Part shown: positions 7,928-64,000 of the stretch, piece by piece
Position numbering within the stretch: position 1 is the first letter of the stretch
Layout of the letters: the number at the start of each line of letters is the position of its first letter
NCBI GenBank assembly: GCA_019096195.1
Contig: JAGTXK010000178.1
Coordinates: forward strand, 124,001 to 188,000
DNA: 64,000 nucleotides
Direction of reading: 5' to 3'
Source: Boletus sp. NGJ
Taxonomy: Eukaryota > Basidiomycota > Agaricomycetes > Boletales > Boletaceae
Notes under the pieces: generated by a model
Databases searched by the model: none
What the model was told of the DNA's origin: nothing
The model's input: only the letters and a program-made list of their open reading frames with translations
Position numbers and translations under genes: made by a program

Positions 7928-9390
7928 CATCAGTAAATACAGGATTTCATCATAGTGCTCATAGTGCCATAGTAGTTTCATAGATAACTCATAGTATTCA
8001 TAGTATCCATGATATATTCATAGTGTGCATAGTATCATAGTATCATAGTACCATAGCATTTCATAGTGTTCATAGTGTTCATAGTGTCATATAGTGTTCA
8101 TAGTATCATAGTGTCATAATACCATAGGATTTCATAGAATTCATAGTACATCCATAGTAGTCATAGTTATAGTAGTAATTTTAAGCTAATCCCAATCCTA
8201 ATCCTAAATCAAAAGTATACAAAAAGTGTAGTCAAAGGTGTAGTCAAATGTTGTACAAAAAGTGTAGGAAAGAGTGTAACCAACTGTCCAGTGCTGTCCG
8301 GTACTAGACAGTAACATAGTGCTCATAGTGAGGGTCCAACTGGATAGTGGTTTGATAGTACTATGATAGTGTCTCATAGTCTGTTTATAGTGTGGTCATA
8401 GTATTCTCATAGTACTTTCATAGTGGTCATAGTATTCCCATAGTATCTCATAGTGTGGTCATAGTGATGCCATAGTATACATAGTGCTTCCATAGTGGCT
8501 TAGCAAATCTAATTCTCATTCTAATTCTAATCCAATTTCAAGCCAATTCTAATTTTAAATTCAATCAAATATTAATTCTACTAATTCTAATTCTAATTCT
8601 AATCCCAGTCCCAGTCCCAGTCCCAATCCCAATCCCAATCCTAATGATTTACAAAGTAAAGTGTTGACTTCATGTAATGAGTAGAGAAGGATAAAATTAA
8701 GAAACAAGAGAGTGTGGGAAAGTTTTTGAAGTCTGGCTTGTTTATATAAGAATGGTGGCACAAACAATGTCCGCTTTTTTAATACTGAGGGTGGGAAAAT
8801 GGACTTGGATATTTTTTGAATGTAGGTCTACGCTTTTGGTACACTTTGTGACCACACTTTTACTACACTTTGGTGTGCACTTTTGGTACACTTTTGGTAC
8901 ACTTTGTTTGCTACACTGTACTACACTCTGCTACACTTTTGTTTGCTTTTTGTTACTACACTTTGTTTGCTATACTTTTGCTACATTTGGTGCGCATTTT
9001 TGCTACACTATATTACACTCTTTCCTACACTTTTTGTACAACATTTGACTACACCTTTGACTACACTTTTTGTATACTTTTGATTTAGGATTAGGATTGG
9101 GATTAGCTTAAAATTACTACTATAACTATGACTACTATGGATGTACTATGAATTCTATGAAATCCTATGGTATTATGACACTATGATACTATGAACACTA
9201 TATGACACTATGAACACTATGAACACTGAAATGCTATGGTACTATGATACTATAATACTATGCACACTATGAATATATCATGGATACTATGAATACACTT
9301 TCAATACTATGATACTATGAATACTATGAGTTATCTATGAAACTACTATGGCACTATGAGCACTATGATGAAATCCTGTATTTACTGATG
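7928..9390. mobile_element. Fold-back element rich in CATAGT repeats, copy 1
   Basis: The arms 7928-8279 and 9013-9390 are near-perfect inverted copies. The outermost bases are CATCAGTAAATACAGGA and the complement. Each arm has three sectors: CATAGT/CTATGA words, a short GGATTAGGATTGGG run, and TACACTTT words. The middle (8280-9012) is a second, different half-element with the same three-sector design. It includes seven CCC tracts with 3-nt spacers at about 8604-8641 and a TATATAA box near 8747. A second, rearranged copy lies at 59204-60860. There it shows that the complete unit has CATCAGTAAA at both ends. No transposase is encoded, so it behaves like a non-autonomous DNA element of unknown superfamily. 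Confidence 0.8.
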
Positions 9391-23660: not shown

Positions 23661-24049
23661 AGAGTCAGCACATCAGTAAAATTACATGCATCTTCATCAG
23701 CAAAAATCCCAAAGGCTACTCTAGCCTATGTTGCATATGTAACATTGGTTGCACCCATTAACATCCCCCTATAACACAGTACTATGTAGTGTTGATAATT
23801 CCTACAATGTATTATGGTAGTGTGCTGTTACATAAGAGTCAGCAGCAACATAGTTTGCTGTAGTCACTCATCATGATTCACCATGTAGCTCTATATGATC
23901 TGTAGCACATGATAGACATCAGTCAAATAAATGAATCAGCCAGAAATACTATATTTAACAATGTAGTTGAGACATTGTAATAATACCCGCACTCAATGTT
24001 GTTGAAAACATCAGCGTTCGATTCGGTGAACAGTTCTATATGATATCTA

Positions 24050-26225
24050 CTATGCAGTCAAAAATTTCACTGGCTCACTCTTCAACCCACTCGTCTACTC
24101 ACTCACCCTCTGAATCATTATTGGAAAAGTGGTCAAAATTCCTGCCATTCTCTACCTGCTCATCTCCTGAGTCCATGTTGTCAGATTCCTCAGCATTGTC
24201 CTCTGGCTCCGTGTTGACAAGTTGGTCAGTAGCACCTCTCATAGCCTTGTACTCATTTATAGCATTCAGAAAAGCATGATTGGATATCACTTTCCTAGGT
24301 TTGGCCACTTGAATCCCTGGATTCGTGACACCGGCATGCACACTGGCCATAGCTAGGATCAATGACATCGACTGCAAAATATAATTGACTTACCGGCCAT
24401 TGCTATAGACTTGTCAGAGTAGTTTGGAAAGCAGTTGTATCAAATCTGTCATGGTGTTGAATTCCATGAGTGAAGCCAAGTGGCTCTTGAAGATGCCTAA
24501 GTACTCATGCTCTTTGAACACAATCATTTCGCGTACACCTGACTCCTATTCGTTGATAGCACACTTGATCTGTTCTTTGTAATGAGTAACACAGCCTTCA
24601 TATAAGTCAAAACCTACAGCAGTGATGGTGAGCACAAATCCCATGATGGGAAAAGGAGTGTAGTATTTTGACCATTGAATGCTATCGTCACCCTTGTTCT
24701 TAAAGAGCACAGCATTGATCACTTGCTGGATAGCAGGTGTCATGTATACACCAGCATGTTCATTGAGTGAATTGCTGCAGATCTTCTCACATTGGTAAGC
24801 ATGGACAGCAGGGGATCAAGTAACACGTACTCAAAATATGAATGCTGAGTCCCATTTCAGTTCCAGGAATAGTGCTCAATTATGCTCAATTGCGTTGTCA
24901 TCTGTGCTGGTATCGAATCCATACACAGCTGCAACAACAGTACAGGCCTTCGACTTGAATTGGCCATGTAAATGAGATGTGCATGTGGTGATCTGATACA
25001 GCAAAAGTCACTCTGCCATAATATGATCATTATATATAATAAGGAAACACTCACAAGCTTCAGGACCACCATGTCATGCAGAATATTCACTTGATGGTGG
25101 CCACAGGCCTTATCCCAAGCTGCTTTGGCCCACTCAATCTCTTTAACAGGTGGCACATATGGATCATTAGAAAACAAGGTCACACAGTAAATTCTGATCA
25201 CTGTCTGAATGACACTTCACATTCCTATGTCATAGTCAGCAGCCTTAGCATGTATCTTGCTTGTGGGGTCAGTGGCACCTGTGGTCTTTAGATTCAGCAC
25301 TGTATGATTATTGGGCTTAACCTCATCTGTCAAGACTGCAGGGTGACCCATGTGCTCTCTCAGTGATGGGTCCATATCTTCATCCATGTTGTCCTGAATC
25401 TGTAGGGTTTGGTTCTCATCATCGAGGTTGAGATCATCCAGCTGAAAGCTGACAACTTGACTTTTACTGCCAGTTGATTACAAACTTTAGTGTGGTGTGA
25501 AAATAAAACTAGGTTGTTAACTTATGAGGGATACAGTGAAGATCCCCACCTGCATGCCCACTTCTTGGGGGGACTTGTCTCCATGACATTAAAATATGCT
25601 TTCTTGTGTCTCAGTGTGTTTAACTTGATAGCCTGGGTGGGCATCTGCCCAAGCATGCCTGTTGCAATCACAAACTATTCACTCATTAGCGACTATAGCT
25701 TAGACTGAGATCAGTGTTTACCTGCAACTCAGAGTCCAGATCTGGAGTTTGGTTGTTGACAGTACCAGTGGCAGCATGGGCCAGCTTCGTAGGCAGAGCA
25801 GGCTTAAGGCCAAGCATGCCCCCTGTCTTCACAGACTAGCCACTTGTTAGTAAAATAGATTGTACATAGCTTACACTAACCATTGTATGCTTATTGACAC
25901 TACTAGCTTGGCCAGACGACACTGGTGGTACTCTGTCCTGGCAGATCATTAGTGGTGCTGTGAGCATGGCAGGGCATGTGGTAGAATTGGTAGCATGAAC
26001 ACTCCTAACTGATCTCATTGTAAACTATGCAAGTGTTAGAAGTATATTAATCATGGCTGTAGTACATACCGCGTTTTCCGAATCCACATTGGGTCTTGCC
26101 GCTTGGCCTTGGATTGGAGTCTTTAATGTTGCAATCATGAATGGATCCATCTCAGCTGCCTTACTCATTTGCTCACATTTGCGGGCCAATGTCTTGTGCT
26201 GAATTGCTTTTTCTTGCACCTGATG
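24050..26225 (-). pseudogene. DUF6532-like gene carried in the Plavaka element (degenerate)
   Basis: Read from 26225 downwards: a helical N-terminal piece (MQEKAIQHKTLARKCEQMSK), a low-complexity Ser/Thr/Pro part, then PYVPPVKEIEWAKAAWDKAC at about 25150. Further on are INAVLFKNKGDDSIQWSKYY and FPIMGFVLTITAVGFDLYEG (24700-24600), and a C-terminal acidic tail (NTEPEDNAEESDNMDSGDEQ). The block with a basic KNK-type motif, YYxPxP and an LTAxxFxxxE-like helix matches my memory of DUF6532, a domain confined to Agaricomycetes and often found next to transposons. Function is unknown. The gene is divergent from the transposase and broken by stops, some of which could be intron sequence. Confidence 0.5.
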
Positions 26226-26727
26226 CTCAGATACATGTTTAGTGTGTTCATTCTCATCTGCAATATGTATGAGAAGATGAGTTAATCAGTTGAGAGCTGT
26301 GCCATCCCTACCCATCATTACCTGCACCTTCCTTCTTACTAGGCCGGCACATATGCCCACGGCTGGATTCAGTCCTAGACACTTGGTTCTGAGGTGCATC
26401 ACTGGTGGGAACTTGGGGCGACATCAGCACAGCACTGTTATCGGGTTGAATGTGGCAGTTAGTAGGCTGCTCAAAGGATGGGGAAGAAGAATGAGGAACA
26501 AAAAAAAATTGAAATCTACATTAATAAGATAGTGACAGCCGGCAGAGATTTAGGGTCAAGTACTAGAGAATGGAGACCTGGAATGGAGACCTTGATAAAA
26601 TGAAGACCTTAGCGTTCAGTTCAAAGGCTTACACTGCATCACCAACTAACCAACATGATCATGATACAGTGATGAAACTTTGCAACCATGATTTTCCTCA
26701 GACTCTTCTGTGTCATTTCTTACCATG

Positions 26728-29700
26728 CCTCGTCTCACCCATATTCATACATTCATGTGCAACAAATGTGGCTACTGCAGCCAGGTATTCCCAATGCTGA
26801 CAGCTGTACAGTGGCATATCAGTCATTCACCATGTTGCCAAGCAGCAACACTGCGAAATGCTGCTCATCAACACACTACAAGAAGTGATCCACTAGCAAC
26901 AGGATATCAGGATGTTGAAGCACACTCTGTCAATGAGGATGGAAACTATACTGACAATGGCAATCCCAAATTCGATATGGATCTTCAGGCTGATGCCAAC
27001 CCACTAGCAGGTCATGAGAAGGGCCTGAATGGCCTAGATGATGAAACGAGTCAAAGATATGCATACGAGTTTGATGAACAATGTGCCGCTGATGTCCTTG
27101 AATCAGCGAAAACTGTGTTTGAGTTGATGGAAGACTTACAAGAGACATCTGGGCAAGGTGCTTATGCCCCATTTGCAGACCACAGCAAATGGAAATTGGC
27201 CAATTGGCTCATGAAAAATGTGAATCAATGGGCAACGGACAAGTTCCTTAAACTACCAATCGTGAGTCACATTATTCAATCCAGTAAATAGCACTTATAA
27301 GTTATTCCTGTATGTAAACATGTGAGTGGACCCGACCAACCTACAAGAGCACACACTCGTTCATGAAATTGATTGATCAGCTTCCTACTGGCCCAGAATG
27401 GCAGTGTGAGCTGGTACATGTACATAGTGATGTGGGCAAAGAGGCCAGAGACTCAGATGCTAGAACTTGAAGATAAGGGCCAGAACAACAAACTTGAGGG
27501 TGAAGCAGACTCCAAGGAGCTGAAGTTGTGGTTGTGGGATCCTGTGGCCTGCATGTGGGAGTTAATCAGCAATGTAGCATTCAAGAACGAGATGGCATAC
27601 ACACCTGAAAAAGTATTTACCAACTCCCATACACAGACACAGTAGTTTGACGAGATGTGGACTGGCGACTGATGGTGGGAAACCCAGGTAAGTCCCTGTG
27701 AGATGTCTTGTCAGTGATATATATTGACAGAAGAATATTAGTCCTGGTTGCCAGCAGGGGCCACTGTGTCGCCTGTCATCCTTGCCTCTGACAAAACTGA
27801 GTTATCGTGGTTCAAGGGGGACAAAGTGGCTTGGCCAGTGTATCTTACCATTGGCAATATTTCAAAACATATATGTCGTTGGCCTGCACATCATGTGTCG
27901 ATCTTGGTGGGGTACTTATCTGTTTCAAAGCTTGAAAGCTTCGAAAACAACTCAGTGGCCAGATACCACCTCTTCCACTATTGTATGAGGTGGCTTGTTC
28001 AGCCTCTTGTAGCTGCAGGCCAGGAGGGAGTTGAGATGGTGTGTGCTGATGGGTTGATCAGGCGAGTATACCCTGTACTCACAGTGTTTATTGATGACCA
28101 TCCTGAACAGTGTTTGGTTGCATGTTGCACCAAAAACTGGTGTCCAAAGTGTCATGTGCCAGCTAACCAACATGGCACCCCCTCCGAATTTCTGTCTTGC
28201 AATCAAGCACACACAACTCATGTACTCCAAGCGTAGGCATCAGGAGAATATCCCCACAAGTTTGTCACTGAAGGCCTGCGCCCAATTTTCTCACCATTCT
28301 GGGCAAATCTCCCTCACTCCAACATATTCACCTGCATTACCTCAGATATACTACATCAGCTCCACCAAGGCATTATCAAGGATCACCCCAAGAAGTGGTA
28401 TATGGCCATCGTGGGCAAGAAGATATTTGATAATTGGTTTCAATCAATGTCATTCCATCCAGGGCTGTGACATTGGAAGGACGGGATTTCCAATGTCAAG
28501 CAATGGACTGGCACTGACCACAAACAGCTCCAACAGGTTTTTGTATCCGTGCTTGTCAGTACACCAAACTTCGATGTCATATGGGCCAGTTGTGCGCTAC
28601 TGGATTTTGTCCATCTTGCACAATACCATTCCCATACCAATGACACTTGACAGGCATTACAGAATGCCCTCAATGATTTCCATGCTTTTAAAGATGTTTT
28701 TATCAATCTTGGGTGTCGCAGTCATTTCAATATACCCAAGCTTCACTTGCTGGTCCACTACATCAAGTCAATCTGGCTGTTTGGTAGCCTTGACAGTTTC
28801 AACACTGAAAATTCAGAGTGCCTACACATCAATTATGCCAAGAAGGCCTATGCTGCTACTAATCAAAAGGACTATACAATACAGATGACCAAATGGTTGG
28901 ACCGGCAGAAAGCCATTATATGGTTCAACTCGTATCTAAGGTGGCATGAGAGTGGTTACACCACTCATGGGTTGGATGACGCAAGTGGTAATGACATGGA
29001 TAATCTGATTCCTGAGGCTAATGGAGCCTCATAACTGCTATCATATCATGTTGCATGCCATCCTCATTTGCCAAAGAGGACAGCATAGTTTCTGATTCAG
29101 CACCACAGTGCTATCGCATTTGTGGAAGCTTTACAAAGATTTCTAGCTAACCTTCCCACTTCAGAGCCTCAGGGGTTTGAACCAACACTCCATGACCGCT
29201 TTGACTGTTTCAGCAATGTGCGGATTCCTCTCCAACCTCTCAAACATCAACATCATGATCTATCTAACAACAAGACAGCGAGAATATGCTCCCATCCAAA
29301 ACATGCTAATGGCCCTCGCAAGCCTCCCACACCAGTGTGGTATGACACCATTCTGATACAGGTCAATGAACAAGGACACAGGATGGGGGGGCTTCAAGAT
29401 AAGCAAATCATCTCTGAATGAAATTGAAATATTAAATGATATTGAATGAAGGACTGCGTGCGGCTGAAGTCCGAGTTATATTCAGACTACCACCTCATCT
29501 CAGTCATTACCCACACCCGCTCATCTACATGCACTTGTTCAAGCCACTTCGTGCATTTGATGACACCATCAAAATGTTCTATTTTGGCCACTCGACATGC
29601 AACCACATTCCTACGTGGTGATCATGCCAATCACTGGTCTTGTCCAACCCTGTCACCTTGTTCCCTGATTTCCAAGTGGTGCAATTGACCCTCGCTGGTG
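26728..29700 (+). pseudogene. Plavaka-type transposase with N-terminal C2H2 finger
   Basis: Begins with PRLTHIHTFMCNKCGYCSQV and FPMLTAVQWHISHSPC, a C2H2-like zinc finger. Next are an acidic linker, FDEQCAADVLESAKTVFELM, WKLANWLMKNVNQWATDKFL, and after an intron ELKLWLWDPVACMWELISNV. The core is at 27750-28220: LPAGATVSPVILASDKTELS, WPVYLTIGNISKHICRWPAH, MVCADGLIRRVYPVLTVFID and CTKNWCPKCHVP. Later blocks (LDRQKAIIWFNSYLRWHESG at 28900, DRFDCFSNVRIPLQPLKHQH at 29190) continue to about 29700. Most of the length is open within exons, with some frame changes. It is better preserved than the copies at 15.4 and 60.9 kb, but I cannot call it active. Confidence 0.8.
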
Positions 29701-30437
29701 TTGTGGGGACAGTATGAACACGGTGGATACTTTCTTTTTGAACAGGTATATTAATATATGTACATTTGAACAATACAGAGTGCATGGGGGTTAAGTAAAT
29801 AGACTGGTTGTTGTCGTTGTCATTGGTAGTCAACATTGATCAATTGGATTGTTCATGTCACGTATTTACTTGTTATTGTCATGGCAGGTGGTTACTGTAG
29901 TTGACGTAGGAATGTGATCAGGCATGTCTGATGACATTGATGATAGTAGTAATGTAATTATGGCATGTGCTACTGCCACTTTTCCTTTTTGCAGATGTTA
30001 ATCTGTCTTATTCAGCTTATTGACTTGCACAACATTTTCAAATCTGACACAGAAACAAATTCTAAGCTTCATTTTGTTGAAAAGTAAAATAGTTTGATTG
30101 TAGTTGATGTTTCTTATGTTCTGGAACACATGATCATGGTATTGAATATATTTTGCAATTTGACAAGCAGAATTAGCTACAATAAGCCAGATTAAGACAT
30201 GTGTAATTTTACTGATGCATGCAGGGTTGTTGATTGGGATGATGAGGGTAAGTTGACGTTTGTCCACCCTGGTAGTTCCATCATAATGCATATGTACCTA
30301 CAGCTACTCAATGCATTATGCAATATGCATTAACTCACTCATTTTGGCTGGGCCCAACATGGGACCCCCCAAAAAGCAATGCAATATGACAGATATGCAT
30401 TACTTCCATATGCATTATGAGCATATCAACTGTAGTG

Positions 30438-55766: not shown

Positions 55767-58311
55767 CGGTTGAACCCCTTGTAACCCATGCCCTATATAA
55801 TCCATAACCTCTTGTAACCCATATATTTTTGAAGTTTCCGAGTTGATATGCAGGAAATTCTAACCATATTCTATATCCCATATCCCATGGCCAACTGGAT
55901 GGGTCAAAATCCATATGTTTCAGCCAGATATTGTCAGTATATCTCTAAATTAGGAATAACTGTTATATAATTAATACAAACATGTCTCCAATGTGGTAAC
56001 TTCAATCCAACTCTCCAGCACATTCCCATCACTGTCATAATGAAATCCATTAATGTTCTAAAAAAGGGGCTGCAGAAGCTTCAGAATGAGACTTGAGAGT
56101 GAAAAGCCTCACTTGAGGCCATATTAAAAACCAATCAGCCAATTTTGGGGGTGGATGAAAAATGGCTTGATACAGTTGGAAATTTGATTGATGAAGTACA
56201 TCTGGTTGACAAGTTGGTTACAACCAAGGAGTATGAAAGGGCTATTGAGCAATTGGATTTACAAGAGCAATCCATTGTTCAGAGGCTGACAGATCTTGGC
56301 AGTGGGCATGCTGCTCCATTAAAAAAGCACAAATGTATGCATATTTTTTTAATCTGTATTGGACCTCAAACAAATGAGCTGGAAACAATAACAGGCCCTA
56401 TGCCAGGTGATGACACCATGAACGCTAGGAAAACACAAGCACCCAAACTCCAAAGGAAGGAGAATGCAATACTTGAACAACAGATCAAGGTGCTTAACTG
56501 ACATCACAACAATGGGGCAAATCAGACACAAACAGCCAAACATTTCAATGAAATCAACCCATCTCTTCTATTAACACAGCCGAAAATGTCAGAGTGGCTG
56601 AAGAAAGAATCTAGATGGCATATGGAGCATAATGCCAACTCAGGCTTGTCTTGTTCGGTGAAAAGAATATGTCAGACACTGCATCCAGAGATTACAGATA
56701 TGCTGGACCTCTGGGTCTCAAAGGCAATGTCAGATAACATCTTGCTGACTGGCAAGATTCTTTATCAGAAGTGGAGATCATTTGTCAACTATGTTAGAGT
56801 GCCAGCAGACAACCAACTCAGCTTGAGCAATGGCTGGCTAGCTTGGTATAAACTTCATATGGGCTTGAAGCAGGTGAAATGGCATGGTGAGGCAGGCTCC
56901 ACAAACCAAGAGACTGTTCAGGAGGAGCAGTTATGAATTCAAAAACTAGTGAAAAGTGGTGGATACAAGTGATGTGACATCTTCAATGCTGATAAGACTG
57001 GTTTGTTTTACAAGTTCATTTCATTCAATTATTTTTGAATTTGTCACAAATCTCAAATAAATAATATAGAATGCCACCTGATCATGGGCTTTCTAGCAAG
57101 CAGCTTTCTGGTGTCAAAGGGAGAAAAACAAGATTGATATATTTATTCATGATGAATGCAGATGGCTCAAAGAAACTGATCCCATTGATCATTGGGAAGG
57201 CAAAGAAGCCTTGTGCATTCAAAAACAAGTCAGCAGAGCAACTTGGTTTCAGCTATTGTAATAATATAAAGGCATGAATGACCCCCTCGATCTATCAGGA
57301 GTGGTTGAAAAGTTGGGATGTCTCACTTAGAAGAAATGGTTGAAAAATCTCCTCCAGGACAACTTCTCAGATCCTGTTGTGTCAGACACTCTCACCAATA
57401 TCTGTGTTGAAAACATTGAACCAAACCTAACAGCACACATTCAATCAAATGACCAAGGAATCATACACTGTTTTAAGGCCCACTACTGTGCCAAGTTCAT
57501 CAATTGTACCATTGATTTCTATGAATCTGGTGTTACACCATCTCAGATCTACAATATTGACCAGCTTGAAGCAATGGAGCTTGCTGATGAAGCCTGGAGT
57601 GAAGTTAATATAACAACCATTCAAAACTGCTGGAATAAAACTAGAATTCTACCTGAAGCAGACCACAAGATAGACACAGTCAAGTCATCCTCCCCAATCT
57701 CTTCTCTTGTTCATGCCACTTGCTCTGAATTTGATGCAAGCCAAGAAAGATGTTGAGCATGCTCTTGATGCCCTTGAGTTATCCAGCACTGCAACCAAAT
57801 GAATCTTGCAGAGCTGCTGAATCCAGCTGTTAAGACTTACAATCTCTTTGATGCAATGGACCAGGACATATATGAGATGGAGGTGAAGAAGCTACAGGAT
57901 GCTAAGGATTCACTGGGATCAGCCAACAGTGTAGAAAATAGTGCACACGGTGACTTAGACAAACCTGTTGACATCATTCTAACATGCAGCAAGGTACTGC
58001 AGGCTGCTTGGGATCTGCAGAAATATGTTGAGGGACTCAACACTGCTTATGCTAGCAACTTCACAGTGATGTTGCATGCATTTGAGTAAGAAACACATGC
58101 CTTGGGAATGCAGAAAATGAAGGAGACAAAGATAACTAGTTATTTTACCTTGAGAGACTAACTTCGACTTGGAAACCAATATAGCTAACTTAGAATATGC
58201 AATGATATTTTTCCAGGTGTTATTGGCCACTGATCATGAAACACATAGCCTCTCATATCCCATACCTTATGGCCTAAACCAGGGGGGCATGGATTATAAG
58301 GGGTTCAACTG
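55767..58311 (+). mobile_element. Pogo/Tigger (CENP-B-like) transposon, 2545 bp, with both TIRs
   Basis: The left end is CGGTTGAACCCCTTGTAACC. The right end is the inverse of CAGTTGAACCCCTTATAATC. The inverted repeat continues as CATGCCC. Both sides are flanked by TA (55765-55766 and 58312-58313), as expected for this superfamily. The insertion lies in the KDZ transposase codons for W-Y-D, at a TA. The internal transposase is disrupted. Confidence 0.9.
56145..58175 (+). pseudogene. Pogo/CENP-B-like DDE transposase (disrupted)
   Basis: CENP-B-type HTH region: QPKMSEWLKKESRWHMEHNA, CSVKRICQTLHPEITDMLDL and KWRSFVNYVRVPADNQLSLS (56580-56830). The DDE superfamily nuclease follows: first Asp in CDIFNADKTGLFYK (56975), GVKGRKTRLIYLFMMNADGS (57110), second Asp in LLQDNFSD (57345), third in NLTAHIQSNDQGIIHCFKAH (57425). 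Then come PSQIYNIDQLEAMELADEAW and NCWNKTRILPEADHKI. The C-terminal region ends MKETKITSYFTL (58155). An upstream piece at 56145-56330 has a helical KLVTTKEYERAIEQLDLQEQ stretch. All three catalytic Asp are visible but lie in different open segments separated by stops, so the copy is dead. Confidence 0.85.
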
Positions 58312-59111
58312 TACCACTGAATGGCAGATCCCAGGCTGTGTTGGAAGGGTTTCTGGATTGCTGCTCCCTGTATTTCAATTAAGTGCAATTCAAGTGTAGT
58401 GATAGATAGGCACATATATTCTTATTAACGATTTGAAACCCACGCCAAACATAGTGTGTATATAGTGTGGAAGCAAGTGCATTGATGACATCACATAACC
58501 ACTCAAAGAGTGCTTGATAGAATGCCAGCAACTTGATAGAGACAGCCATATGAGGCTGAGATGGAGCAGTGGGGAAAAAACCAAAATGAAGGAGCATCTG
58601 AGCCACCATTGCACACTTGCAGCTCGTGACATCAATAGTAGTAAAATCTGAATGATGTTAGGGCTTCTAAATGGAACCAGGATGGCATACACTTACAGTT
58701 AAAATGGAGAGCAAGTAGTTGAGTAGATTTGTGCAGGCAGCTGCCAATCTGGCAGAGGGAGATGGACTGTGGGTTTGGTGCCAGTGGTTTCCCAAGCATT
58801 CTGGACATATAGTGCAAATGGGGCAAAACAAGAATACAAATGACATCCTTCCAGTTTGCATACAAATGTTTGGCAGTTGCATCAGAAAGGACACATTGGC
58901 ATGACTTTGCAGTTTGTGTTTCGGATCCATGGCTTGAATTGTGAGCTTCCTGGATGGTCTGTTTGTGAGCATCATGGATGATTACCTCTGGTTCAGCATC
59001 GCTAGGAATGTATCAGCAAATCCATGATTTTGCCACAGTGCCACAGTGGCTACAGTTGAGGTCAGGCACTAACAATATTTGTCTTATAGCAAAATTAATC
59101 ATTTTTGGTGT

Positions 59112-59204
59112 GACTGTACAGTGGGGACCTAAGTATACCACTGTAAATCACTATGCCACTGTACAGGCAGTATAGTGGTACAGTTAGGTCCCCACTGCAC
59201 AGCC
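59112..59204. repeat. Miniature hairpin element at an inversion breakpoint
   Basis: About 93 bp. The left arm is GACTGTACAGTGGGGACCTA with more, and the right arm is the inverse, beginning GGCTGTGCAGTGGGGACCTA. Arms are about 33 bp with a few mismatches around a short loop. It resembles a MITE. It lies precisely where the fold-back element is broken. Confidence 0.6.
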
Positions 59205-59820
59205 ACCAAAGTGTAATAAAAGTGTAGTCACAAAGTGTACCAAAGAAGTGTAGACATACACTCAGAAAAACAAAATCCAAGTCCATTTTCCCACACTCAG
59301 TGTTCAAAAAGCGGACATTATTTGCCAATGTTTGTGCCACCATTCTTATATAAACAAGCCAGACTTCAAAAACTTTCCCACACTCTCTTGTTTCTTAATT
59401 TTATCCTTCTCTACTCATCACATAAAGTCAACACTTCACTTTGTAAATCATTAGGATTGGGATTGGGATTGGGATTGGAACTGGGACTAGGATTAGAATT
59501 AGAATTAGAATTAGAATTAGTATAATTAATATTTGATTGAATTTAAAATTAGAATTGGCTTGAAATTGCATTAGGATTAGGATTATGATTGCTAAGCCAC
59601 TATGGAAGCACTATATATACTATGGCATCACTATGACCACTATGGAAGTACTATGAGAATACTATGAGACACTATGACAGACTATGGCCAGACTATAAAC
59701 AGACTATGAGACACTGTCATAGTACTATTAAACCACTATCCAGTTGGACCCTCACTATGAGCACTATGTTACTGTCTAGTACTGTCCAGCACTAGACAGC
59801 TAGTCCTGTTTTTACTGATG
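59204..59820 (-). mobile_element. Fold-back element copy 2, half B (inverted)
   Basis: The inverse of 8280-8855 in copy 1: TACACTTT words, TATATAA (59347), a GGGATTGGGATTGGG run (59455-59490), TAGAATTAGAATTAG, then CTATGA words. The end carries a hairpin (CTGTCTAGT/ACTAGACAG) and the terminus CATCAGTAAAAACAGGA (complement of 59804-59820). Confidence 0.8.
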
Positions 59821-60405
59821 CTCCTACTCCTGGCAGTCAGTGAATGGGGCATAAATGCCTTGTTCTGCTGGCTCTTGTGAGTCTTTCATTGCTTTGAAAG
59901 AAGTCTTTGCTGATTCTAGGACCTCTGCAGCAGAACCTTCATCATAATCATGTATATATCATTGGTTGACCAGATTATCAATGTCATATGGCTGAGATTT
60001 CTTGCCAGATAGATCAGTGGTAGGAGCAGCAATGCTACCATCATGGTTGCCTGAATAACTCTCCCACCTAGCTGCCTCCATGAGATTATCAGGTGGGTCA
60101 TCCTGGATGGGCAACTCATTGTGCCCAGCATTTTTGCTGACATGGTGCACTGCCACACTCTGCAGGGCTTGCACTTGGCAACAAGGAGAATGGCCAATGT
60201 GCTATCATACCCTGCTCATTGTCAGGAATCCCTGGCCATAGCAGGTGCACTGATATTGCATGGAATTTTGGAACTGTTGACTCAGTGGCGCGTGGGTCAA
60301 CAAGAAGAATGAGACGAAAACCTACATTTACCAATCCGTAAGCTTAGCAGTGTTCAGTTAGTAATACCATGTGATGCATCTAACAAAATCTTAGGGTTTC
60401 CATTC
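59821..60405 (-). pseudogene. N-terminal part of the Plavaka transposase, inverted relative to the rest
   Basis: On the minus strand, near 59960, is SGKKSQPYDIDNLVNQ. It is followed by YDEGSAAEVLESAKTSFKAM and a IYAPFTDCQE stretch ending at 59821. This corresponds to FDEQCAADVLESAKTVFELM and GAYAPFADHSKWKLANW of the copy at 26.7 kb. The remainder of the transposase continues on the plus strand from 60861. The 60340-60405 part has no recognisable coding. Stops are present. Confidence 0.75.
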
Positions 60406-60411
60406 CACCAT

Positions 60412-60860
60412 TGTGCATTTTTGGTACACTTTTGGTACACTTTGTTTGCTACACTGTACTACACTCTGCTACACTTTTGCTACATTTGGTGTGCATTTTT
60501 GCTATACTGTACTACACTCTTTTTGTACAACATTTGACTACATCTTTGACTACACTTTTTATACAATTTTTGACTACACTTTTTATATACTTTTGACTTA
60601 GAGATAGGATTAGAATTGGAATTGAGATTGAGATTGAGATTGGGATTTGGATTAGCTTAAAATTACTACTATGAATATGACTACTATAAATGTACTATGA
60701 ATGCTATGATACTATGACACTATGATACTATGAAGACTATGAATATACTATGGATACTATGAATACACTTTCAATACTATGACACTATAAATACTATAAG
60801 TTTTCTATGAAACTACTATGGCACTATGAGCACTATGATGAAATTCTGTATTTACTAATG
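60412..60860 (+). mobile_element. Fold-back element copy 2, half A
   Basis: Matches the right arm of copy 1 (8874-9390), with a shorter TACACTTT sector. It runs GTGCATTTTTGGTACAC, the GATTGAGATTGGGATTTGG run, CTATGA words, and ends TTCTGTATTTACTAATG. The flanking AG at 60861 pairs with the AG next to the other terminus (complement of 59821-59822). Confidence 0.8.
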
Positions 60861-63500
60861 AGTTAGCCAAGTGACTTACTATAAGCATGAATCAACATGC
60901 AACCAATGAATTGCTGATTGTAAGTGATGTTCAATCAGGAACTTGTAGAGATAATGAAACATGTAATATGCAGACCTGGGAACAGACTCAACCAAGCTAT
61001 AAGAGCTCACATATATTCTTGAATGTGTTAGATCAGCTTTTGACTGGGCATGAGTGGAAGTGCAATCTTGTATGTGCTTGTGGCAACACAGATTATCTTG
61101 GAGAGACAGGAAATGCATAGGAAGGTGAGGTCAAAGAAAATGAAGTTGAAGGCAAGGAGTTGAAGCTCTGGTGGCGAGATCCAGTGGCCTGTGTGTAGGA
61201 ATTAATTGGCCATGCAGCATTCAAAGACAAGATGGCATATGCATTAGAGAAAGTCTATATGGACCATCAAGGACAAACTTGGTGATATGACAAGATGTGG
61301 ACCACAGATTGGTGGTAGAAGACCCAGGTGAGTTCCTGTGAAATCTGCTTTTGGAGATGCACCTTGACAAATTTATTAGTTGCAGTTGCCAGCAGGAGCA
61401 ACAGTGTTGCCCATCCTCCTCACCTCTGACAAGACTCAGTTGTTTAGATTCAAGGGTGATAAGGTTGCATGGCCCATCTATTTAACTATAGAGAATATTT
61501 CCCATCATATTTGTTGTCAGCCTGCCCGCCATGCTTCAATACTGCTGGACTGTCTACTAGTTTCAAAGCTTGACTCATTTGAGAAAACATCTGTTGCTGG
61601 TTACCGCCTCTTCCGCTATTGCATGAAATGAATAGTTGACTCACTTGTCATGACCGGATTGGAGGGTGCCAAAATGGTCTGTGCTGATGGGCTGGTAAGG
61701 CAAGTCTACCCCATCCTTGCCACATTCATTGGCGATCACCCAAAGCAATGCTTGATTGCATATTGTGCAGAAAACCACTGTCCAAAGTGTCATGTGCCTG
61801 CTGATCAATGCAGTGCAAATTCCAAATACCCACCTCGTGATCAGGCATAAACTACACATGTACTCCGAGCACAAGCGGCAAACAAATATCCCCCTGAATT
61901 CATCACAGAGGGCCTTTGCCCCATCTTCTCCCCCTTCTGGGCCAAGCTCCCTTATTCCAACTTTTTCTGTTGCATGACCTCAAACATACTGCACCAGCTC
62001 CACCAAGGGATCACCTCAAGAAGTGGTGCATAGCAATTGCAGGCAAAAGGGCCTTCAACGCTCAGTTTCAGGCAACACCATTTGATCTGGGACTCTGACA
62101 TTTCAAGGCCAGGATTTTGCCAATCAAACAGTGGACTGGTGGTGACCACAAGGAACTTGAGTAGGTTTTTTTGACCACACTGGTGGGTACAAAACCAAAC
62201 ACTGACATGTTTCAAGCCAGTAGAGCACTGCTCAACTTTGCCTATTTAGCACAATATCTTTCCCACACCAACAACACTCTCCAAGCTTTACAAAATGTGC
62301 TGAACACCTTCCATAGGCTCAAGGATGTTTTCATCCTTCTCAGATGTTAGAAGCATTTCAACCTTCTGAAGCTCCATGCACTTGGTCACTATGTTGACTT
62401 GATTCAGCTCTTTGGCAGCCTTAATGGCTTCAACACAGAGAATTATGAGTGCCTTCACATTGACTACACCAAGAAGGCATATGCAGCGAGCAATCACAAG
62501 GACTACAAAATACAGATGATAAGGTGGTTGAACTGTTGGATATTCATATGAGGGTGGTAGTACAGCCACAAATTACATAATCATATGGTACTTAGAAACC
62601 TTTGTACCATAGGTCTTCTCTTCAGTGACTACACTAAAGACTACAGTCTTCTACATGAACTGGCAGGAAGCCATGTCAAGATTTAGGGTATATTTAACCT
62701 GGAATCACTCCTTAACTACTGTTGGGTCAGATGATGACCATAGTGATGATACTGACAACTCATGTGCTGACGCTGAACTGGCAATACATGTGCAGGCATA
62801 TCACATCACACAGCACTCTCAATTTTCAAAGAGGACAGTGCAGTTCCTGATTCAGTTTCAGGGTGCAATAGGATTTGTAGATGCATTACAAGCATTCATT
62901 ACAGACCTTGCCCCCAGACAACAAATGACTTTCCAACCTACTATCCATATTGACTGTTTCAGCAATGTTCAGATTCCCCTCTGGGCACTCATCTATTCAT
63001 CTGGCAATGAGATGGCAAGAATTCACTGACATCCAGAATGTACAAATGGCCCTTGCAAACCTCCTACACTTACACACTATGACACTGTCCTGGTGCAAGT
63101 TGATGTGATGGCTCACAAGATAGGCAGGTTTCATAGTGAGTTAAACCTTGTGTACACATACATAAAACCCAGATTTGATTGATTTTAATCTATAGGACTC
63201 TGTGTGGCTGAGGTTCGAGTTGTCTTCATACTACAGTACCTCCTCACCTTGGGAATTATCCTCATCCACTCGCATATATTCATTGGTTCAAGCCACTTTG
63301 CACCTTTGACAACAACTTGCAAATGTTCCATTTGGGCCATTCAACTTGGAATCACTTGCCAAACACTGCAGTAGTGCCAGTCATGCATTTGATGCAACCC
63401 TGTCATCTTGTTCCCTGGTTTCCAAGTGGGGCTTTGAATTCTTGTTGGGTTTGTGGAGACTCAGGCAGCACTGACTTTTTTTCTTGAATAGGTATATTGA
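60861..63500 (+). pseudogene. Plavaka-type transposase, C-terminal four-fifths
   Basis: Starts mid-protein with ELAK.LTISMNQHATNELLIV and LDQLLTGHEWKCNLVCACGN. It continues ELKLWWRDPVACV, LPAGATVLPILLTSDKTQLF (61385), WPIYLTIENISHHICCQPAR, MVCADGLVRQVYPILATFIG and CAENHCPKCHVPADQC (61770). Then comes a decayed middle, VYLTWNHSLTTVGSDDDHSD (62690) and HIDCFSNVQIPLWALIYSSG (62945), to the 3' end near 63500. It is collinear with 27190-29730, same subfamily. Many stops and frame changes; CpG-poor. The transposon ends were not identified. Confidence 0.8.
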
Positions 63501-64000
63501 TTTATGCACTTTTAAACAGTACAGGGAGCATGGGGTTGTCTAAATTCTACTGTACCCAAGATGAGCCTGCCTTCCTTGGTATACTACATGTGGGCACTGA
63601 TGCCATGTTTGATCAGCACATCCTATCAGCACATTCTCATTCTGGTTGTCGCAAAATCTCAACAACCACAATAGTGTTGGAATACAAGCATGCCCACAGT
63701 CACTAGCATCTGCCTCATTTTGCTACATTGTGCATACTGTATGCCATGCCACGTCACCTTTCATTCTATCCTTTCAATATCCATTGTATGCAGGAAGATA
63801 GTACCCTACACCACCCTTTGCTTTCCATTTTACTGATACATTTATATAGAACTCCCAATGAGTTACTGCTCCCCTCAGTCTGTTGTACCACATGACAACT
63901 GAGTTATTGTTCCAGCCATTGCATATCTGTTATATTTCCACAGCAAAATCTTACAGACAATAGTGTTGGTAGCACACATCAAGATATCTATTAGACTGTG
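63501..64000. other. No recognisable feature
   Basis: AT-rich sequence to the window edge, without a supported ORF. It may be the 3' non-coding part of the Plavaka copy; the window ends before any terminus. Confidence 0.4.

Follow-up and report, generated by a model that had tools for sequence, protein, structure and literature searches.

Small inversions can arise by end joining, and their junctions then carry short overlaps. The fold-back-like Drosophila transposon Galileo generates inversions when copies of a single element recombine ectopically, according to the available portion of its description (PMC4168063). PlavakaB, a member of the CMCT clade, has CATCA..TGATG ends and is flanked by 2- or 3-bp target duplications, again as given in part of the published account (PMC12730594). 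In the available extracts of the literature on inversions linked to MITEs, palindromes and fold-back elements, no comparable fungal case was found. Here, we describe a rearranged region in a 64,000-bp stretch of DNA from Boletus sp. NGJ (the window), which is part of a 274-kb contig (C31) in a 32.8-Mb genome. Judging from one assembly of one strain, the region very probably derives from a Plavaka copy that was hit by another element and then suffered two breaks, loss of ends and rejoining in reverse orientation.

Right of position 59,000, the window contains, in order, part of a fold-back MITE, termed F (59011–59206, plus strand), the first half of a ~1.07-kb element with CATCAGTAAA ends (59204–59820, minus strand), the upstream part of a Plavaka transposase gene (59821–60413, 593 bp, minus strand), the second half of the element (60412–60860, plus strand) and the remainder of the decayed Plavaka copy (60861–64000, plus strand). 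A sequence-only reading of this region had placed the N-terminal part of the transposase on the minus strand between two element halves, with the remainder of it starting at 60861 on the plus strand. Both placements are confirmed: the upstream part is inverted, decayed with stops and ~85% identical at the DNA level to three other Plavaka copies (C82, C109 and C75), and the remainder starts at 60860/60861. The same reading had explained the whole arrangement by a single inversion of 59204–60411. The core of that explanation, namely the element, the AG duplication and the gene order, stands, but the flip is not clean and DNA was also lost.

In C82, C109 and C75, the two transposase pieces adjoin on one strand, without the element; the C75 copy is missing some 25–30 bp beside the insertion point. 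The comparison took in these three copies, with more distant Plavaka matches at 65–76% left out. The C82 peptide is continuous through the insertion site and is matched by both sides in the window, including the peptide at the inner end of the inverted piece, with two tryptophan codons that are now stops. When the window flanks are compared with this empty site after un-flipping, AG is found on each side of the element: the first copy at 59821–59822 (minus strand, CT on the plus strand) and the second at 60861–60862 (plus strand). These flanks were read by eye from the sequences; the automatic alignment had the flank bases out of register. The three element-free copies and the AG on both sides support the claim that the flip returns the transposase to one strand with an AG target duplication.

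Of five stop-free plus-strand pieces, three, from 61380–62033, matched Pfam family PF18759 (E values of 6.3e-21, 9e-19 and 1.2e-9), and there was no Pfam match on the other two or on the inverted piece, which is therefore assigned to Plavaka by DNA similarity. A 6547-bp Plavaka element elsewhere in the window (23671–30217, plus strand) has the corresponding transposase stretch uninterrupted. Dating by divergence was uninformative, the inverted and non-inverted Plavaka parts being about equally far (82–87% identical) from the three copies. Comparison with Plavaka copies (L037, L038/L041 and L040) gave 134 transition columns versus 16 others and no invariant CpG in 59821–60411, and 225 versus 26 with one invariant CpG in 61385–62533; all 27 changes private to the inverted piece are transitions (438 columns compared). 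This pattern, which comes from these copies and has no genome-wide control, would fit RIP-like or methylation-driven decay. Farther right, the window copy aligns with the C109 copy up to the contig position equivalent to window 64116, where the two diverge just after CATGAGTACAATA. This split is another insertion or deletion, in either the window or the C109 copy.

To compare the element with its relatives, we reversed 59204–60411 computationally and compared the resulting element, by alignment, to 27 loci (L010–L036), which are the best matches to its first half besides the window among the best 40 of 220 candidates. The restored element has a match in all 27 loci, across the restored joint in 26 and from end to end in 17; the single locus that does not cross the joint (L020) has a gap at that position. 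That the window's order might itself be the normal form had been raised earlier, and copies with this order were absent from the 27 loci: none aligned across either junction with 20 bases on each side, and each raw junction sequence occurs only once genome-wide at ≤3 mismatches. The joint reads GGTGCGCA in 16 of the 27 loci and GGTGTGCA in six; in the remaining five it is either different or not visible. The restored window joint agrees with the GGTGTGCA form, provided that a TG present in both Plavaka and the element is counted only once. The proposed break inside the element is thereby borne out, the halves 59204–59820 and 60412–60860 joining on the flip. A scenario with no inversion at all, in which two halves of the element and a piece of Plavaka inserted separately, would suit a region that is a nest of repeats, but chance would then have to yield a full element, an AG on either side and collinearity of the gene upon one flip, which makes this explanation scarcely credible.

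Another copy of the element in the window (copy 1, 7928–9390) had been named as the model for the restored order. The joint itself is well represented, as the 26 loci show, but copy 1 is compound: it has the un-flipped order, its outer ends lack a 2-bp duplication, and its alignment with the flipped element consists of one block (element position 26 to the end, 80.5%) plus smaller blocks, some of them inverted. Of the two regions suggested for alignment with the reversed segment, 8855–9020 lies in copy 1, and 27130–27250 belongs to the uninterrupted transposase of the 6547-bp Plavaka element.

The flip was also expected to turn two CATCAGTAAA ends outwards. The element is indeed restored end to end, but its second end is TTTACTAATG, i.e. 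CATTAGTAAA, with one mismatch to CATCAGTAAA. With mismatches allowed, CATCA..TGATG termini are present in the ~1.07-kb element, and the window copy has one CATTAG end. Target duplications of 2 bp flank 13 of the 20 clean-ended loci and 3-bp duplications none; the other seven of the 27 loci are without a clean pair. Genome-wide, CATCAGTAAA occurs 216 + 206 times, compared with 20 + 15 times for the reversed pattern, so the 32.8-Mb genome contains several hundred such ends. The element and the MITE have ends of one type, as would be needed if a transposase had paired ends of two elements and inverted the intervening DNA. Both breakpoints lie deep within elements, however, away from the ends, and we rejected such aberrant transposition, which we consider highly improbable, on account of this internal position.

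The left junction (59203–59213) lies inside a motif common to F and the element. Read on the strand needed for the junction, the motif on the F side is CACACCAAAAGTG in two of four copies examined, with close forms in the others; on the element side it is CACCAAAGTG, following CA or CG depending on the copy. MITE and element have 7–9 bp in common at this point, again depending on the copy. The junction in the window is CCACCAAAGTG, two bases short of either parent motif, and an overlap of only 3 bp (CAC) is also compatible with it if one substitution is allowed. Overlaps of 3 bp are common (6.5% of position pairs), while pairs within shared 9-mers make up 0.018% and pairs within shared 7-mers 0.10% of all, for one MITE copy versus the window element. 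Between MITE and element, the longest shared words measure 10–11 bp and are not all at the junction, so the left overlap is suggestive only. One of them, ACCAAAAGTG(C), overlaps the junction motif in the MITE and lies elsewhere in the element; further 10-bp words are away from that motif in both sequences. The proposal that the junction motif is the site of the longest common words was withdrawn, as the word comparison does not show it. At the right junction (60412–60413), TG is common to Plavaka and the element, a 2-bp overlap. From their sequences, the look of both junctions suggests end joining.

A simple flip does not account for all of the DNA. The C82 and C109 copies extend 473 and 487 bp, respectively, further upstream than the right breakpoint, and part of this stretch is present in C75. 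A simple flip would place it to the left of 59204, where the left arm and centre of F are found instead. The ~475–490-bp stretch had no match in 57001–64000 nor elsewhere on the contig, and a genome search with it returned only C82, C109 and C75, a lack of further matches that is not proof of absence. In addition, the right arm of F is absent from the window, so at least ~0.1 kb of the MITE was lost; ~475–490 bp of Plavaka was lost as well, if the copy was whole, because the stretch was not found in the window. With neither the Plavaka 5′ stretch nor the MITE right arm found, a clean reciprocal inversion is rejected. We infer that the Plavaka 5′ loss and the inversion took place in one event. 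It is possible, if unlikely, that there were two steps, first a deletion that fused MITE and Plavaka, then an inversion with a break at or close to that junction: a loss is required to account for the MITE arm and the Plavaka stretch that are missing, and nothing dates that loss. This order of events needs two independent breaks at one place, however, and a single event would be simpler. The missing sequence also bears on an assembly error, in which a palindrome and a repeated element caused a false join. Both breakpoints fall within repeats, and each raw junction is found once in the genome, both of which speak for such an error. Yet the window is without N, one flip accounts jointly for the element, the AG and the gene order, and sequence is missing rather than repeated, all of which renders an assembly error improbable.

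F has ends of the form CATCAGCAAATCC..., here TATCAGCAAATCC, is truncated at the left breakpoint and matches copies in C73, C11, C63 and C28. Three copies are whole, measuring 375 bp (C73), 359 bp (C11) and 276 bp (C63), and all three have CATCAGCAAA ends and 2-bp duplications. Their palindromes extend over most of their length, giving F its fold-back character, and their arms are 86%, 88% and 100% identical, respectively (C28 was left out, its right end not having been found by the script). The sequence-only reading had noted a 93-bp hairpin repeat at the left breakpoint. A hairpin is present there (59109–59207; as the centre of F, 59110–59206, with 36-nt arms that are 86% complementary; z of −4.81 for 59010–59260), the sole one in 64 kb in a scan for 24-nt arms with ≤3 mismatches and a spacer of ≤80 under a low-complexity filter, but it is the left arm and centre of a second element, F, with its own CATCAGCAAA ends. 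Because the whole MITE is palindromic, any cut in the right arm leaves a hairpin that stops at the break, and we dropped this feature as evidence of cutting there. The copy close to the beginning of contig C63 (L062:244–519) is a 276-bp palindrome with 138-bp arms that are 100% alike, probably a young fold-back MITE. In the window, around ten bases of the three whole MITE copies are missing at 59095–59112, near the mirror position of the break; this gap may reflect slippage or be a trace of the rearrangement event.

The most likely history would begin with the entry of a ~1.07-kb non-autonomous element with PlavakaB-type ends into the transposase-coding region of a Plavaka copy, where AG would have been duplicated. 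Later, a break would have occurred in the fold-back MITE to the left of the Plavaka copy, or beside the MITE, and a second one mid-way in the inserted element, freeing the segment between them. On the left side, the right arm of the MITE and, most simply, everything to ~475–490 bp inside Plavaka would have been lost. The remaining ~1.2-kb segment would then have been rejoined in reverse, with the short MITE/element motif on the left and the 2-bp overlap on the right. Two double-strand breaks followed by end joining, with or without microhomology, would produce these junctions, and the palindrome may have been the weak spot for breakage. We regard it as rather doubtful that palindromic PlavakaB-type MITEs are repeated break sites in this genome and that the motif CACCAAA(A)GTG, common to them and longer non-autonomous elements, steers repair into inter-element inversions.

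PlavakaB-like ends are present on the ~1.07-kb element, the fold-back MITE, a ~245-bp MITE and the 6547-bp Plavaka element. The last has CATCAGTAAAATTACA ends with CA on either side, and PF18759 (E = 2e-59) on its open frame 27742–28236 links CATCAG ends to Plavaka. The MITEs of ~242–246 bp have ends closely similar to those of this element. The ~1.07-kb element and the fold-back MITE resemble PlavakaB, as far as the partial account goes, in having such ends and 2-bp duplications (PMC12730594), but would differ in being non-autonomous, a status suggested by size alone. A connection of the ~1.07-kb element to a PlavakaB transposase would lie in the ends that it has in common with the 6547-bp element. 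In the stretches covered, no CATCA..TGATG ends of the broken Plavaka copy itself were found around the C82 and C109 copies or in the window, where its 5′ part is missing. Given the ends of the MITE and the element, both sequences joined on the left stem from elements with CATCAG ends, the type published for PlavakaB (PMC12730594). By the same ends, an older Plavaka gene was entered by one PlavakaB-type element, and the other breakpoint holds a second such element.

The short overlaps and the loss of ends liken this locus to small inversions formed by end joining, from which it differs only in the fold-back MITE at one end. With Galileo, in the available part of its description, it has in common a fold-back element at an inversion breakpoint; it differs in that two different elements with 7–9 bp in common are involved, that DNA was lost, that the junctions are non-reciprocal and that the segment measures 1.2 kb (PMC4168063). 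At the two junctions, which are F/element and Plavaka/element, the Galileo-type signature of a single element present in inverted copies at either breakpoint, with reciprocal hybrids, was not found. The kind of event is ordinary and already known; this example is new, and it leaves general views as they were. It provides a readable case of the small-scale scrambling of nested transposons, in which a single flip combined with a loss accounts for a gene that is broken and switches strand, and, through their ends, it connects several of this genome's non-coding repeat families with PlavakaB transposons.
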